Source: Candidatus Goldiibacteriota bacterium HGW-Goldbacteria-1
GTDB lineage: Bacteria; Oederibacteriota; PGYV01
Reading direction: 5' to 3'
Assembly (NCBI GenBank): GCA_002839855.1
Contig: PGYV01000007.1
Span: forward strand, 62,001-126,000
DNA: 64,000 nt
In this document: piece after piece, positions 45,041 to 50,966 of the stretch
Position numbering within the stretch: the first letter of the stretch is position 1
How the letters are laid out: each line of letters begins with the position of its first letter
Notes under the pieces: model-generated
Database searches by the model: none
What the model saw: the letters and a program-made list of their open reading frames with translations, nothing else
Told to the model about the DNA's origin: nothing
Translations under genes and position numbers: made by a program

Positions 45041-45757
45041 TTATGCCCCGCTCTCTTTTATGTATCCCCTTAATTTCATCCTTGCAATTATCCTTGCAAC
45101 GCGCCTTTTCTGGAATTCTTCTTTCTGCTTTGTTAAAAGTTCTTTTCCCCTTGCCTTCGGCCGGGGGATAACAACGGCAAGCATGGCCGCTTCTTTGGGC
45201 GTAAGTTCATGCGGAGATTTGTTAAAGTATACTTTTGAAGCCTGTTTAATACCGTAAATTCCCTTTCCAAATTCCGCGATATTTATATAGTAATCAAGTA
45301 TCTGCCTTTTTGTAAGTTTATTTTCAACGCGAAGGGCGGTTATTGCCTCTATTATCTTTCTTTTAACTGTTTTTTCTTTGGTCAAATACGCGTTTTTAAC
45401 AAGCTGCTGGGTTATTGTGCTGCCGCCGTACTTCAATTTAAGATGAAGTATGTCATATCTTGCGGCCCTTAAAGTTTCATCTATATTAACCCCTTTATGC
45501 CTGAAAAAACTTCCGTCTTCCGCGGCAATTATCGCGCCTGTGACGTATTTGGGAAGTTCAGCGGAGCGGACAAAATCTTTTGAATACGGAGAAACAGAAC
45601 GTTTGATATAGGTTTTCCCGTTGTATGCCTTTATGGTTACTCTTGTTTTTATTTTGCTTATATCCGGAAGTATCGCGTTCATGACAGTAAAAAAACCGAT
45701 AATATAAGCAAACGCGCATTGAACTATAATAATTGCTCTTAACCGCAAAAGTGTCAC
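45041..45757 (-). CDS. mtgA: Monofunctional peptidoglycan glycosyltransferase (GT51)
   Basis: Polymerises lipid II into glycan strands at the inner membrane. An N-terminal membrane helix (IIIVQCAFAYIIGFFTVM) is followed by the GT51 domain: EDGSFFRHKGVN (first catalytic Glu and H-x-G), GGSTITQQLVKNAYL, KRKIIEAITALRVE and the second Glu in KRQILDYYINIAEFGKGIYGI. There is no transpeptidase domain, so it is monofunctional. I prefer GTG at 45757, with GAAGGA upstream; the frame extends to GTG 45808 without a ribosome site. A strong promoter lies at 45884-45912. Confidence 0.93.
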   Translation of the reverse strand: MTLLRLRAIIIVQCAFAYIIGFFTVMNAILPDISKIKTRVTIKAYNGKTYIKRSVSPYSKDFVRSAELPKYVTGAIIAAEDGSFFRHKGVNIDETLRAARYDILHLKLKYGGSTITQQLVKNAYLTKEKTVKRKIIEAITALRVENKLTKRQILDYYINIAEFGKGIYGIKQASKVYFNKSPHELTPKEAAMLAVVIPRPKARGKELLTKQKEEFQKRRVARIIARMKLRGYIKESGA

Positions 45758-45883
45758 TTGAAATCCTTCGGGCGTTTCAGGAAAGTCTGTTGGGCTTTCT
45801 TGGCGCACATTTTAGTCTGTTATCTTCCGTCTCCGTTATGCGGATGAATCGTATTAACAAGGTTTTCTACTATAATCTACTAT

Positions 45884-45912: not shown

Positions 45913-46287
45913 GAGTATGATCATTGCGGATGTATTTTATTATGAAAAAGTGCTTTTTTTAGAGACAAAAATTACGCCCCGAATCATATTGCCGTAACTT
46001 TGCTTTAATTAAATATCAACTAATCCCCTGCAATCTTCTACTATAAGATATGCTTTTCCTCATAATTTGATAATGATTAATTAGGTTTTTTTATAGTATC
46101 CTCTGCTTTTCTACTGTGTTAAAGCGTGACTTTCAAATCACTGGAATAACTATAATTATTATTTTGTAAAAATATCGATAATCATGGGTTAATGGCGATA
46201 TTTCGTTGAAGCGTTCACCGTAAAAACACAATATAAAACAGCGAGTAAAAATCGAATATTGGATTAATACTTTATAAAAACTAAGAA
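45913..46287. other. Noncoding AT-rich gap at the island border
   Basis: No convincing frame or RNA gene. An 8-bp inverted repeat AAATATCG/CGATATTT (46170-46177, 46196-46203) lies about 85 bp past the stop of the PIN gene and may be a weak terminator. Base composition changes here from the mixed composition of the backbone to that of the AT-rich island. Confidence 0.5.
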
Positions 46288-48294
46288 TTATTTGGAGGCT
46301 AAATCAATTAGTTCTTTTGTTGTCTTCCTGCTAATAAGAAAACTGATTCCAATAGCAATAATTACAGGGAATCCTATAATACAAGCATTTATCCAATTTA
46401 GGCTCAATAATCTTTCTACATTTGTATTTCCGGTTCCAATTTTCGTTCCAACAATAACATCTAAAATAAATCCAATAATTACAGAAATTAAAATGAGGGA
46501 AACAATTATAATATCTTTTTTTGAATTCTTTTTTACCATGTTATCAATATCGTTTTTGAATTCACTCTTTAAGTCATTGACTTTTTTATCAAATCTTCTT
46601 TCCTGTTCTTGTTCTCTGTTGTGAAAACTCTGTTCTTGTTCTGAATACTTACGCTCAAACATTTGTTTAACTTCATTCAATTCTTTTTTTTGTTGAGCTT
46701 CATTTGTCTCCTGCTTTTTTTTCAAATTTTCAACCATTACAGAAAGGTTTTTGCTGTTAATCTCATCAACATTTTTAGTTATAGAGGCATTTATCAATAA
46801 ATTTCTTGTTTCTTGATCATAAATAAGTTCGGTCATATGTTCTTCTGTAATTGTTCCCGAATTTTTTTCCTGTACTAATAATTCAACAAAGTATTCCCAT
46901 ACACCCTCGTCAATTAATAATGAGTTTTTAAATATAGATAAAATTGCTTCTAGGTCGATTGTCTTTGGTATTTTTAACCATAAAAGATTTGTAAAAACCT
47001 TATCAAACATCACTTCTGCTATCGTTAAATTTACAAAGTGCTTATGAATGTCGTTATCGAATTTAAACAAAGTAAAATCCGATGTCAAAAATATATATTT
47101 TGCTTGTTCAAAATTACGTACATTTCCTTTTCTTTTTTTCTTAATTAATTCAATTACTGCTAAATCGTGTTTAACCGAATTCGGTGTTACATCTTTTATT
47201 TCATCCTCATCCAGCGATTTATTTAGATTTCTTTTTTCTTTCCTTTTCTTTAATTCCGCATAGTCGTTTTTATTATAATCTTGAAATTTTTCAATGTCCG
47301 TTATTCCTGTATTTTCTATTGTTATTCCTAATTTTCTTATCTCATCATCTATATGGATTACAAATTCTCTAACTCTCATTGATGACCAACCCTTGTTTTT
47401 TAATGCAGAATAAATAGAATAAATATCAATCCCAGTAATGTAGTTAAATTCTTTGTAGTCATATCCATGAAGGACGTTAACACATTCCGTTATCGTAAAA
47501 TCAAATACTTTTATTTCAACATCTTTTATGTCCTTTATCATTTTAAATAACTCAAGTGCAGGTTTTGTATAAGAATCATGATGCAAATTTAATATGCTAA
47601 ACATAATATTGCTGTCTAAATATACGGTTATTTTTTCAAACTTTCTTCCCAGTTCATTCATCTCTGCTGCGTTCAACGAAACGGATAAAATACTGCCTCT
47701 AATCAGACTGGACAATACCTCATATTGTTCAGGTTCATTTACATAGATTCGCTCAAGTATGTTTATCAGCACTTCAGTTTCCTTAACATCAATTTTTTCA
47801 TTTCGTTCTTGTATTGATGTTTGATGCTGCGTTTTATTCATTTTAATAAAATATTTTTTCATCACTTCCACTTGTTTACTTAATATTCTTACAAGTATTT
47901 TTTCTATTTCGTTCTTACTTCTTTCAAGGCCAAACTTTTTAAATTCAATCATTAAATAATCAAATAATTGATTTATTTTCCTGATTTCTTCATCTGCTGT
48001 AGAAAATTTCTTAGCGTATTCTTTCCCGCTTTCTGTCAAGAAATATTCTTTAAATTTACTGCACCCGATCAAATTTAATTTTTTTAATCTGTTCAGAAGA
48101 GTATGTAAAGAATTTATAGGAACATCGAGACAGAATGACTCTTTTAGCTTATCTGTCATTTCATCAAATAGCATTGTATTATCCTTTTTGTTATCTATTA
48201 CATAAACGACAAATGGGAGAAAGCTATCAATTAGACTTTTTTCCCGCTCATAAAATGTTTTAATTAGAAGATACGATGATAAGTTGTTTAGCAT
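46288..48294 (-). CDS. Membrane-anchored winged-helix/PIN-like nuclease candidate
   Basis: A 668-residue protein that I do not recognise as a named family. Seen: an N-terminal winged-helix-like part (about 30-95, NSLHTLLNRLKKLNLI ... KEYFLTESGKEYAKKF); a helical part; a PIN-like domain from 220 to 430 with acidic residues at the usual places, D227 (VYLDSN), E270 (TITEC), D377 (VKHDLAV) and D406 (FLTSDFTLF); a long coiled coil (about 505-590); and two membrane helices (about 594-617 and 634-655). I infer an RNA- or DNA-cleaving enzyme tethered to the membrane. Codon use is far more AT-rich than in its neighbours, suggesting transfer. A GGGAGG ribosome site precedes ATG. It is divergent from the HEPN-like gene. 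Confidence 0.7.
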   Translation of the reverse strand: MLNNLSSYLLIKTFYEREKSLIDSFLPFVVYVIDNKKDNTMLFDEMTDKLKESFCLDVPINSLHTLLNRLKKLNLIGCSKFKEYFLTESGKEYAKKFSTADEEIRKINQLFDYLMIEFKKFGLERSKNEIEKILVRILSKQVEVMKKYFIKMNKTQHQTSIQERNEKIDVKETEVLINILERIYVNEPEQYEVLSSLIRGSILSVSLNAAEMNELGRKFEKITVYLDSNIMFSILNLHHDSYTKPALELFKMIKDIKDVEIKVFDFTITECVNVLHGYDYKEFNYITGIDIYSIYSALKNKGWSSMRVREFVIHIDDEIRKLGITIENTGITDIEKFQDYNKNDYAELKKRKEKRNLNKSLDEDEIKDVTPNSVKHDLAVIELIKKKRKGNVRNFEQAKYIFLTSDFTLFKFDNDIHKHFVNLTIAEVMFDKVFTNLLWLKIPKTIDLEAILSIFKNSLLIDEGVWEYFVELLVQEKNSGTITEEHMTELIYDQETRNLLINASITKNVDEINSKNLSVMVENLKKKQETNEAQQKKELNEVKQMFERKYSEQEQSFHNREQEQERRFDKKVNDLKSEFKNDIDNMVKKNSKKDIIIVSLILISVIIGFILDVIVGTKIGTGNTNVERLLSLNWINACIIGFPVIIAIGISFLISRKTTKELIDLASK

Positions 48295-48348
48295 GTTCGC
48301 CTCCCGTCCTTACTCCCATTTTTAATATTAACCATTTTTATATATTTC

Positions 48349-48376
48349 AGTATACTTTAAATATATCGTTTTACAA
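48349..48376 (-). promoter_or_regulatory. Candidate promoter of the PIN-like gene
   Basis: On minus: TTGTAA, 16-nt spacer, TATACT, about 55 bp before the start codon. AT-richness makes chance matches likely. Confidence 0.4.
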
Positions 48377-48626
48377 TTATTATTTTATTAAATATTAGAA
48401 TACGTAGTAGTTTTGGTATTTTTAGATCCCGAGTTTCTCAATTATTTATATAACTTTCTAGAATTGTACTAATTTTTTTTGTAAAAAATCTATATCTTTC
48501 TCTCTATTAACAATATTCCGTAACTCCGATATCTGATCAACTAAATTTTCTATTTGTTTACGGCAGCCCTAGGTGATAATCCCCGGCACGAAAAATAAGA
48601 GACATCCTATCTCTAATGGATAATCA

Positions 48627-48654
48627 TTGACTGCTTGATATAGCAGAGTATAAT
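48627..48654 (+). promoter_or_regulatory. Promoter of the HEPN/DUF5677 gene pair
   Basis: TTGACT, 16-nt spacer, TATAAT; predicted start near 48661, then a 50-nt leader with TTGAGG before ATG 48712. Confidence 0.65.
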
Positions 48655-48711
48655 CAAATAAGATACGTGTCCCAGTTGAGAAAAGGTTATAAATAATTTT
48701 TTTGAGGAAAA

Positions 48712-49641
48712 ATGAAATACGGTATAATTTGCGAGACTAAATGCACAATTCCATTGCACAGAGAAGAAATATTTATCGTTAATGGAATAACTATTTCCTT
48801 AATTCCAAAAAATGGTTTTTTAAATGAAGTGTCAACAAGCGTTTCAATCCCAATGACTGATAATAACTATACATATATCAAAAAAGCAACTAATAATATG
48901 AACGAATTAATTGTAAATAGAGACGAAGTCTATTATAAGAAGTTTATTGATATAATGATACATTTAGAAAATTTTTTAGGGCTTCATTATGAATTGGAAA
49001 AAATAACTTGGGAAAACAGGAAAGAATTCTGGACTCCCGAAAATGAAATCGAGAGAAAAAGTAACATGGTGTTTTCGCATTCGATAAATGGCAAATATCC
49101 CATTAGACATGAAAAAATTAATATGCAATTACTCCTGCAAATGCTGAAAGAGAATGCCGCACTTAATAAATTAAAAGTGCCGCTATCTTTCTATAGAGAA
49201 GGAGAAAATTATTTCAAGAAATTCAGATATATCGATTCTTTCAAATATTTATTTTTAGCAATGGAAAGCATTTATGCCAACGGTCATTCGAAGTCAAAAA
49301 AAATGATAAGTGAATTTAAAAAATCTGGAAATCTTTTACAGGGGTTCAGAGTTTCAATTTCACAAATTGATAATAAACATAAAAGTAGTTGTATGGGGTT
49401 AGGGGTTGAGTTTGGAATTGTCGATTGGGAAAACGAAATTATTGAATTTGTCGTAAGAATCAGAGGGTTTCTAAGTCATCACAATATAAAAAGTAATAAA
49501 TACGGAAATCCGTTCGAACACGAAAAGTATTGTTCAATAACACTTGTTCTAATGACAGCGCTGAACATAGCGCTGACAGGAGAACTTATACTCTTATCGA
49601 AGGTTAATATTGTAGAGTATTTACTTAATAAACAGGAATAA
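48712..49641 (+). CDS. HEPN-like protein (Apea-type) with Rx4H motif
   Basis: A 309-residue protein. The N-terminal half (1-about 155) is of unknown fold. The C-terminal half is helical: FLAMESIYANGHSKSKKMISEF (about 181-202), then VVRIRGFLSHHNIK, where R251-G-F-L-S-H256 fits the HEPN R-x4-H catalytic motif, followed by a final long helix. This resembles Apea-like HEPN proteins, many of which are RNases in defence or toxin systems. AT-rich codon use matches its island neighbours. The second gene starts 34 bp downstream. The family assignment is inference from the motif and helix pattern. Confidence 0.6.
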   Translation: MKYGIICETKCTIPLHREEIFIVNGITISLIPKNGFLNEVSTSVSIPMTDNNYTYIKKATNNMNELIVNRDEVYYKKFIDIMIHLENFLGLHYELEKITWENRKEFWTPENEIERKSNMVFSHSINGKYPIRHEKINMQLLLQMLKENAALNKLKVPLSFYREGENYFKKFRYIDSFKYLFLAMESIYANGHSKSKKMISEFKKSGNLLQGFRVSISQIDNKHKSSCMGLGVEFGIVDWENEIIEFVVRIRGFLSHHNIKSNKYGNPFEHEKYCSITLVLMTALNIALTGELILLSKVNIVEYLLNKQE

Positions 49642-49675
49642 CAAAAAAAGATACCCTAAACTTAAGGAAGAACTA

Positions 49676-50497
49676 ATGGATGCTAAAGAAGAGCAAATTT
49701 TACAAGAAGATATAAAAGAAATTTCTTCTATTATTTCTTTTCAAAAGAGACTGTTTTATCCAATAACTATTCCTTCTGATTCGGAAGAAAACCAAATACG
49801 TAATAATATTCTATATTCATTACACGAATTGAATTTGAAATCGTTTGAAACTATCCAATATCTAATATCAACTTACAAAGTATCGGATATTTTTGCATTG
49901 AGTAGACAAATATTTGAAACAACTATAAATATGGGGTTGCTTGCGAAACCGATTATACCTGATGATTTAGAAAAATTTTGTGAGTACGATTTTTTTCAAA
50001 TTAATAAGGGAAACACACACATAAAGGAAATGAAATTAGATAAATATATCAAAATAGAAGAAAGTAGAGTTTCAGAAATCAGCGAAAAAGTTAAGCAAAT
50101 TAAACAAAAAAGAAATTATAAAAATAATCCACAATCGTGGACGAATACCGACTTATTAAGTAGAACTAAACTTATCGATGAAAATTATTTAAATTATATA
50201 CCCGAACAAAATAAACATTTTTACGAATTACTATATTGTCAATTATATAGAGCATCCTCGCAAGTTTTACATGCTACCCCTGCTGGTTTTTTAAAAATGT
50301 ATGAATTCAATCCCGAATTAAAAAAAAATAGTGTAACACATTATAAACTCAAATTAGTTGATGGCATAATGATGAAAGCGGCAGAATATACAATCATTTC
50401 ATTTTTAAGTTCTATAAGATTTTTTGGAATATATCTCAACAAAACCGAAGCAGAAGAATATTTCAAAGAAAAAATACTAGAACATTATAATCTTTGA
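49676..50497 (+). CDS. DUF5677-like helical protein
   Basis: A 273-residue, mostly helical protein. KVSDIFALSRQIFETTINMGLLA (about 68-90) and the later YRASSQVLHATPAG (about 191-204) match the two conserved blocks of DUF5677-type proteins (a Ser/Arg-x3-E helix and a Y-R-x-x-S-x-x-V-H helix). DUF5677 proteins are frequent in defence islands, but their biochemical role is not settled. It probably shares a transcript with the HEPN-like gene 34 bp upstream (leader CTTAAGGAAGAACTA before ATG). It has the same AT-rich codon use. Confidence 0.6.
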   Translation: MDAKEEQILQEDIKEISSIISFQKRLFYPITIPSDSEENQIRNNILYSLHELNLKSFETIQYLISTYKVSDIFALSRQIFETTINMGLLAKPIIPDDLEKFCEYDFFQINKGNTHIKEMKLDKYIKIEESRVSEISEKVKQIKQKRNYKNNPQSWTNTDLLSRTKLIDENYLNYIPEQNKHFYELLYCQLYRASSQVLHATPAGFLKMYEFNPELKKNSVTHYKLKLVDGIMMKAAEYTIISFLSSIRFFGIYLNKTEAEEYFKEKILEHYNL

Positions 50498-50693
50498 AAA
50501 GAAGGTAAATCAAATAATTAAAACAGCGAAATTGTTATAGTAATTTGTTTTAAAACAAACAATAATTAACAAAGAAATACAGCGGCGATTAAAACCCATA
50601 GGCGCATCAAAAGCCCGCCTCTTTCATCTGCTCGTCTACAAACACTGGCATAAAATCACAATCAATAACTTTTATATTAATTTTTCTTTTACT

Positions 50694-50966
50694 CTACGCG
50701 CGTTTGGTCCCTATAATCCATCTTCCATATAAAAATGCAGCCAGGGGAAATACTATGATGATAAGTTTGTTCATGGCAAAAGCACCGGAAAATTTAAGGT
50801 GGATTAAAAGCCAAGCTGCGCGTGTTATGCCGCAGCCCGGGCATTCAAATCCAAAAAGGTTTTTATACAGGCAGAAGCTTTTTCCGTTAAATATAATATC
50901 ATACGGAAAAAAATATAAACCGCAAAGCAGTGCTGCTGTAATAACTATTTTTAAAGGTACTTTCAC
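50694..50966 (-). CDS. DUF2752 membrane protein
   Basis: A 90-residue protein with two membrane helices and the DUF2752 signature CPGCGITRAAWLL (C-x-x-C-G-x-T-R), about residues 41-53, between them. Function unknown; possibly metal or thiol chemistry. The start is GTG at 50966, with no ribosome site of its own. It lies 6 bp after the TM2-domain gene, so coupling is likely. Confidence 0.85.
   Translation of the reverse strand: MKVPLKIVITAALLCGLYFFPYDIIFNGKSFCLYKNLFGFECPGCGITRAAWLLIHLKFSGAFAMNKLIIIVFPLAAFLYGRWIIGTKRA

Follow-up and report, generated by a model that had tools for sequence, protein, structure and literature searches.

An AT-rich defence-related island in a candidate phylum FCPU426 bacterium and a widespread membrane-anchored PIN-like protein family

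Single-protein defence built around a PIN domain is a workable design, since one such protein, DS-3 (identified by DefensePredictor), has been published and requires its catalytic residues (PMC13092281). In phage P2, the fun, tin and old loci are hotspots for defence genes (PMC9519451, PMC9122126), and according to Vassallo et al., fun is part of a second locus enriched in defence genes in P2-like phages (PMC9519451). Here, we compare with these systems a three-gene island in the 2.86-Mb genome of Candidatus Goldiibacteriota bacterium HGW-Goldbacteria-1, a member of candidate phylum FCPU426. The island lies within a stretch of 64,000 nucleotides that was analysed as a whole and is called the window below (contig PGYV01000007.1, positions 62,001 to 126,000). 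Three intact open reading frames (ORFs) were confirmed, encoding a PIN-like protein of 668 amino acids (46288 to 48294, minus strand), a HEPN-like protein of 309 amino acids (48712 to 49641, plus strand) and a DUF5677 protein of 273 amino acids (49676 to 50497, plus strand). The initial annotation took them for a candidate undescribed defence module, in which a shared divergent promoter region suggested one functional unit. Our preferred reading, to which we give a probability of roughly 65%, is a small defence island, that is, independent antiviral cargo genes at a variable site and not one co-evolved three-gene system.

The PIN-like protein has several properties in common with DS-3: it is one protein, it has PIN-type catalytic residues, it has no cognate antitoxin, and its family is represented in the accessory genome of Escherichia coli. 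DS-3, compared here by its description and not by its sequence, is described as having a PIN domain split between the N and C termini, whereas the PIN-like protein has a central conserved region with a long insert, followed by a coiled coil and two membrane helices. The putative catalytic region spans residues 221 to 410 (47065 to 47634, minus strand). Among nine aligned homologues, D227, E270 and D377 are invariant and position 406 (D406 in the window protein) is D or N, giving the PIN order D, E, D, D/N, and the fourth acidic position sits in a [TC]x[ND] motif downstream of a predicted strand. VapC-type PIN toxins have the same catalytic order, D - E - D - Tx[ND]. However, the PIN-like protein is about 650 amino acids long and not about 130, has no VapB-like antitoxin, possesses membrane helices, and carries a large insert between the second and third acidic residues. 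Residues 514 to 586 (46537 to 46755, minus strand) are highly charged and probably form a coiled coil, appearing as a single long helix in a low-confidence model. They are followed by two hydrophobic helices at residues 595 to 613 and 637 to 655 (46330 to 46512, minus strand; hydropathy peaks of 3.02 and 2.48). Both helices are present in eight of the nine homologues; the exception is the Enterococcus copy, whose C terminus is truncated, with an insertion sequence alongside. The conserved acidic order and the two helices bear out the earlier description of a membrane-anchored PIN-like protein, with the fold assigned by motif. The Pfam, NCBIfam and PADLOC libraries gave no match that identified the window protein, and the solved structures searched gave no useful match. 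A weak Pfam match to DUF2207_C, below the cut-off and covering the coiled coil and membrane helices, was taken as compositional. Fold prediction was run on both the PIN-like and the HEPN-like proteins and yielded models too poor to use, with predicted local distance difference test (pLDDT) values of 41 and 32, respectively; Foldseek with the PIN-like model returned only noise and no fold matches.

Full-length relatives of the PIN-like protein, found by tblastn and profile searches, are 600 to 700 amino acids long, show roughly 16 to 25% identity and span at least five phyla. Two come from other FCPU426 genomes (G001 and G017), and plasmid-borne relatives were found in Sporosarcina, Klebsiella, Pantoea, Enterococcus, Arthrobacter and Hymenobacter. 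Two E. coli prophages and one P2-like contig from IMG/VR carry further copies. The copy of E. coli FDAARGOS_1337 belongs to a P2-like prophage, where it sits with the tail sheath gene on one side and the tail-fibre assembly gene on the other; we take this to be the position of P2 fun. The second prophage copy of E. coli and the one from IMG/VR adjoin the P2 D gene. Despite the likeness to P2 fun in position, the family is not detectably P2 Fun, as tblastn found no relative in phage records, and the window copy, unlike the P2 hotspot genes, is chromosomal and lies outside any prophage.

Known or candidate defence genes recur beside these relatives. In Sporosarcina, the PIN gene is followed by a recombinase and then by a cyclic oligonucleotide-based antiphage signalling system (CBASS) operon with SMODS and SAVED proteins. 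The Hymenobacter gene is divergent from a DNA methyltransferase-helicase pair resembling a restriction-modification (R-M) system, with CHAT proteins close by, and the neighbours in G001 include TIR, CAP12-type TIR and caspase genes. The G017 gene has 31% GC content in a region of 47% GC. Directly downstream of it is the gene for a YhcG/DUF1016 PDDEXK nuclease, which matches PADLOC candidate PDC-S02, and the pair is flanked by smc-like and trxB-like genes (locus L043, G017:C17, 5482 to 8575). No HEPN or DUF5677 partner was annotated or recognised in the PIN neighbourhoods examined, and no recognisable antitoxin gene lay beside the PIN genes. The enterobacterial relatives gave no convincing match in PADLOC-DB 2.0.0. 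A weak PIN match in another phylum genome (G041) fell in a response-regulator/kinase gene and was rejected.

The window genes are part of an inserted AT-rich block of about 4.7 kb without assigned strand (45916 to 50580), delimited by the points at which blastn matches to a contig of a congener, G040, end on either flank. The block has 28% GC, versus 42 to 45% in the flanks; in 1-kb windows the island shows 28 to 31% GC and the remainder of the window 35 to 47%. The individual genes (PIN-like, 28.2%; HEPN-like, 30.1%; DUF5677, 26.5%) fall 5.3 to 6.9 standard deviations (SD) below the mean of 36 other long ORFs in the window (42.3%; SD, 2.3%). GC at third codon positions lies 2.0 to 3.5 SD below those same ORFs, and codon likelihood is close to the lower edge of the host-gene range. 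The sharp difference in base and codon use noted initially thus holds strongly for base composition and moderately for codon use, which mainly reflects the base composition.

Two host genes flank the island: a transglycosylase gene (Pfam Transgly; 45041 to 45808, minus strand), with 91 to 94% identity in two congeners, and a DUF2752 gene (Pfam; 50694 to 50966, minus strand), which is kept in both. All three island genes are absent from these congeners. In G040, the DUF2752 and transglycosylase genes are neighbours, and the two homology end points are separated by only about 370 bp of 45% GC, part of a small native ORF. About 75 bp on the DUF2752 side of the island (50580 to 50655) remain homologous to that ORF, so the island has apparently taken the place of most of a small gene. 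In the other congener, G039, homology on the transglycosylase side stops at 45913, the same place, close to the end of a contig. The flank on the DUF2752 side enters different cargo of 27% GC, comprising an ORF of ribbon-helix-helix-like type and two DNA methyltransferases of the N6_N4_Mtase and D12 families, shortly before the contig ends (L028, G039:C115:6600-9664, 431 to 2964). This cargo is R-M-like. Because the site is near-empty in G040, and because in G039 the same flank adjoins other cargo, we regard it as an insertion hotspot whose AT-rich cargo is interchangeable, and it displays the variable content between conserved flanks that defines a defence island. The island borders contain no integrase, tRNA, RNA family or long terminal repeat, and their longest shared word is 11 bp. 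Taken together, the insertion between conserved neighbours, the alternative cargo in a sister species and the occurrence of relatives beside known defence genes make horizontal acquisition of a defence-related island well supported. As a separate observation, the contig end of G039 beside the hotspot (L022, 1 to 90, at the start of G039:C65) carries GGACATTTCTATTTTGC twice in direct orientation, resembling the end of a transposable element.

The HEPN-like protein carries the motif RGFLSH (49462 to 49479, plus strand), an Rx4H motif formed by R251 and H256. Both residues are retained in two relatives, from Rhizobium and Sinorhizobium, at about 24% identity, which agrees with the initial assignment, made from the motif. 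The protein resembles the HEPN RNases of defence and toxin systems in having Rx4H near the C terminus and in that one relative lies beside a Lamassu system: in Sinorhizobium meliloti Ak57, the gene is divergent from a complete LmuA-LmuC-LmuB operon. It differs from those RNases, to which it is likened by motif, in having neither a match to a Pfam HEPN family nor an MNT partner. Beyond the two rhizobial records, no relative was found in 45 phylum genomes, plasmids, phage records or viral contigs. A weak match in G025 lies within or across a long helicase-like gene and was rejected as chance.

The DUF5677 protein, like other PF18928 members, has a significant Pfam match (E value of 1.7e-12; 48.2 versus a gathering threshold of 27.1 bits), in agreement with the first description; one paper in the literature searched mentions the family. 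An alignment of five members leaves few constant positions, among them R77, E81 and H199. The R-x6-H of the window copy is not conserved, and for that reason we do not call the protein an RNase. Relatives in the phylum occur in other settings. In G041, the gene directly follows hsdR-hsdM-hsdS, a type I R-M system. In G044, an AT-rich pair (L044, G044:C90, 7352 to 10014) consists of a 218-amino-acid DUF5677 protein (28% GC) followed by a 628-amino-acid protein (31% GC) that has tetratricopeptide repeats and an N-terminal nucleotide-cyclase-like region (weak matches to Guanylate_cyc, E value of 9.6e-4, and PADLOC PycC, E value of 3.8e-4); this pair is a candidate Pycsar-like system. Another genome, G027, holds two DUF5677 genes. 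One is a lone AT-rich gene (36% GC) whose product starts with a zinc-binding-like CPNCG, between dnaK-like and dxr-like genes of 59 to 61% GC (L045, G027:C156, 6726 to 7565). The other follows an IrrE-DUF4411 pair, and the ORF after it looks like a tyrosine recombinase on reading, with no profile match. No DUF5677 relatives were found in viral contigs, and a weak match on contig 8 of G000, in a long secreted-type protein, was rejected as chance.

How the three genes relate to one another can be judged from their distribution. Among 45 FCPU426 genomes, PIN occurs in three, HEPN in one and DUF5677 in four, and only the window genome holds any two of them; the three homologues together are confined to that 1 of 45. 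No three-gene co-occurrence was seen elsewhere in these genomes or in the annotated neighbourhoods of the plasmid, E. coli and viral-contig relatives. PIN and HEPN relatives were likewise lacking in phage records. Two scans of genome contigs with back-translated patterns recovered a single DUF5677 relative, already known, and none of PIN; this yield is explained by the fact that such patterns miss relatives at about 20 to 25% identity. An integrated system, with a membrane PIN effector, a HEPN RNase and a DUF5677 regulator served by a shared divergent promoter region, would account for the common atypical composition, the adjacency, the divergence around one intergenic region and the arrival as one block. 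It is nevertheless improbable, given that the families are not found together in the other phylum genomes or in the annotated neighbourhoods of homologues and that the PIN gene recurs singly in prophages and plasmids. The divergent intergenic region itself (417 bp, 48295 to 48711, no strand) has its best sigma-70-like match at 48627 to 48654 on the plus strand (11/12), and promoter-like sites across the island are not more frequent than in shuffled sequence. A purine-rich sequence resembling a ribosome-binding site precedes all three genes. The intergenic region also contains a short open stretch, KQIENLVDQISELRNIVNREKDIDFLQKKLVQF before a stop (48452 to 48560, minus strand), which may be a gene remnant. 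Of the undescribed defence module proposed initially, what stands is a foreign, defence-related island of families none of which is a housekeeping family, with no convincing match for any of its three proteins in PADLOC-DB 2.0.0. The single three-gene unit is not supported: the lack of joint occurrence in the 45 genomes and the annotated neighbourhoods examined is the outcome that the initial annotation had named as refuting it. The absence of co-occurrence in the 45 genomes and the solo distribution of PIN elsewhere favour a collection of cargo genes, and the link to defence has been strengthened gene by gene, not for a joint module.

A division into two modules, a solo PIN defence gene and a HEPN-DUF5677 operon of toxin-antitoxin-like or two-component type, is a sub-case compatible with the preferred reading and somewhat short of an even chance. 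The HEPN and DUF5677 ORFs are on the same strand, 34 bp apart, and are probably cotranscribed, as was first supposed. Many HEPN toxins act with a small partner. Yet no second HEPN-DUF5677 pair was found, the rhizobial HEPN relatives have no DUF5677 neighbour, and DUF5677 is found with other partners. The frequent presence of PIN relatives on plasmids and prophages could instead reflect mobile-element maintenance, by addiction or by elements excluding one another, or an unrelated stress response, and not antiviral defence of the host. We consider this rather unlikely, as no recognisable antitoxin gene lies next to the PIN genes and relatives are also chromosomal, beside defence genes.

Several points weigh against an island of independent antiviral genes. 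The link to defence genes was assessed by eye, with no background rate, and the Klebsiella, Pantoea and Enterococcus neighbourhoods hold mobile elements and no adjacent known defence gene. Outside the phylum, the scans lacked sensitivity for relatives at 20 to 25% identity, and the two rhizobial records are too few HEPN relatives to test pairing with DUF5677. The window protein has no significant match to a Pfam PIN profile, and profile comparisons with two PIN toxins by hhalign were negative. Its structure model is poor, at a pLDDT of 41; the order of strands and helices around the acidic residues fits. The designation PIN-like is made on motif and predicted secondary structure, and one homologue matches Pfam PIN_3 below threshold (E value of 5.6e-4; 21.2 versus 27 bits). 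RNase activity, an infection trigger, an oligomeric state and antiviral function are what we infer.

If the island of independent cargo genes is the correct reading, the main element would be a stand-alone PIN-like RNase. Its N-terminal region would probably act as an infection sensor or keep the enzyme shut, and the coiled coil and two C-terminal helices would anchor it in the inner membrane, probably as an oligomer. Upon infection, the PIN domain would cut RNA, either tRNA or mRNA, and phage growth would be stopped, whether or not the cell dies. As a separate transcription unit, the HEPN-like and DUF5677 genes would be either a second module, with HEPN as RNase and DUF5677 as its partner, or two further solo genes. 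A bolder version, in which the PIN-like family provides a single-gene defence that is widespread and unnamed, in the form of an auto-inhibited PIN RNase anchored at the inner membrane, where it senses infection, and in which HEPN and DUF5677 constitute a second undescribed two-gene RNase system, is speculative and on balance doubtful.

With this locus, a defence insertion hotspot is defined for FCPU426, a candidate phylum that has been little studied, and DUF5677 has gained a recurring context as an accessory gene of defence loci. What is most interesting in the remainder is an unnamed and widely spread membrane-anchored PIN-like family of about 650 amino acids, whose members occur singly in five phyla and which Pfam, NCBIfam and PADLOC do not contain. 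As a candidate for single-gene defence it can be tested directly, with laboratory-tractable copies in E. coli prophages.

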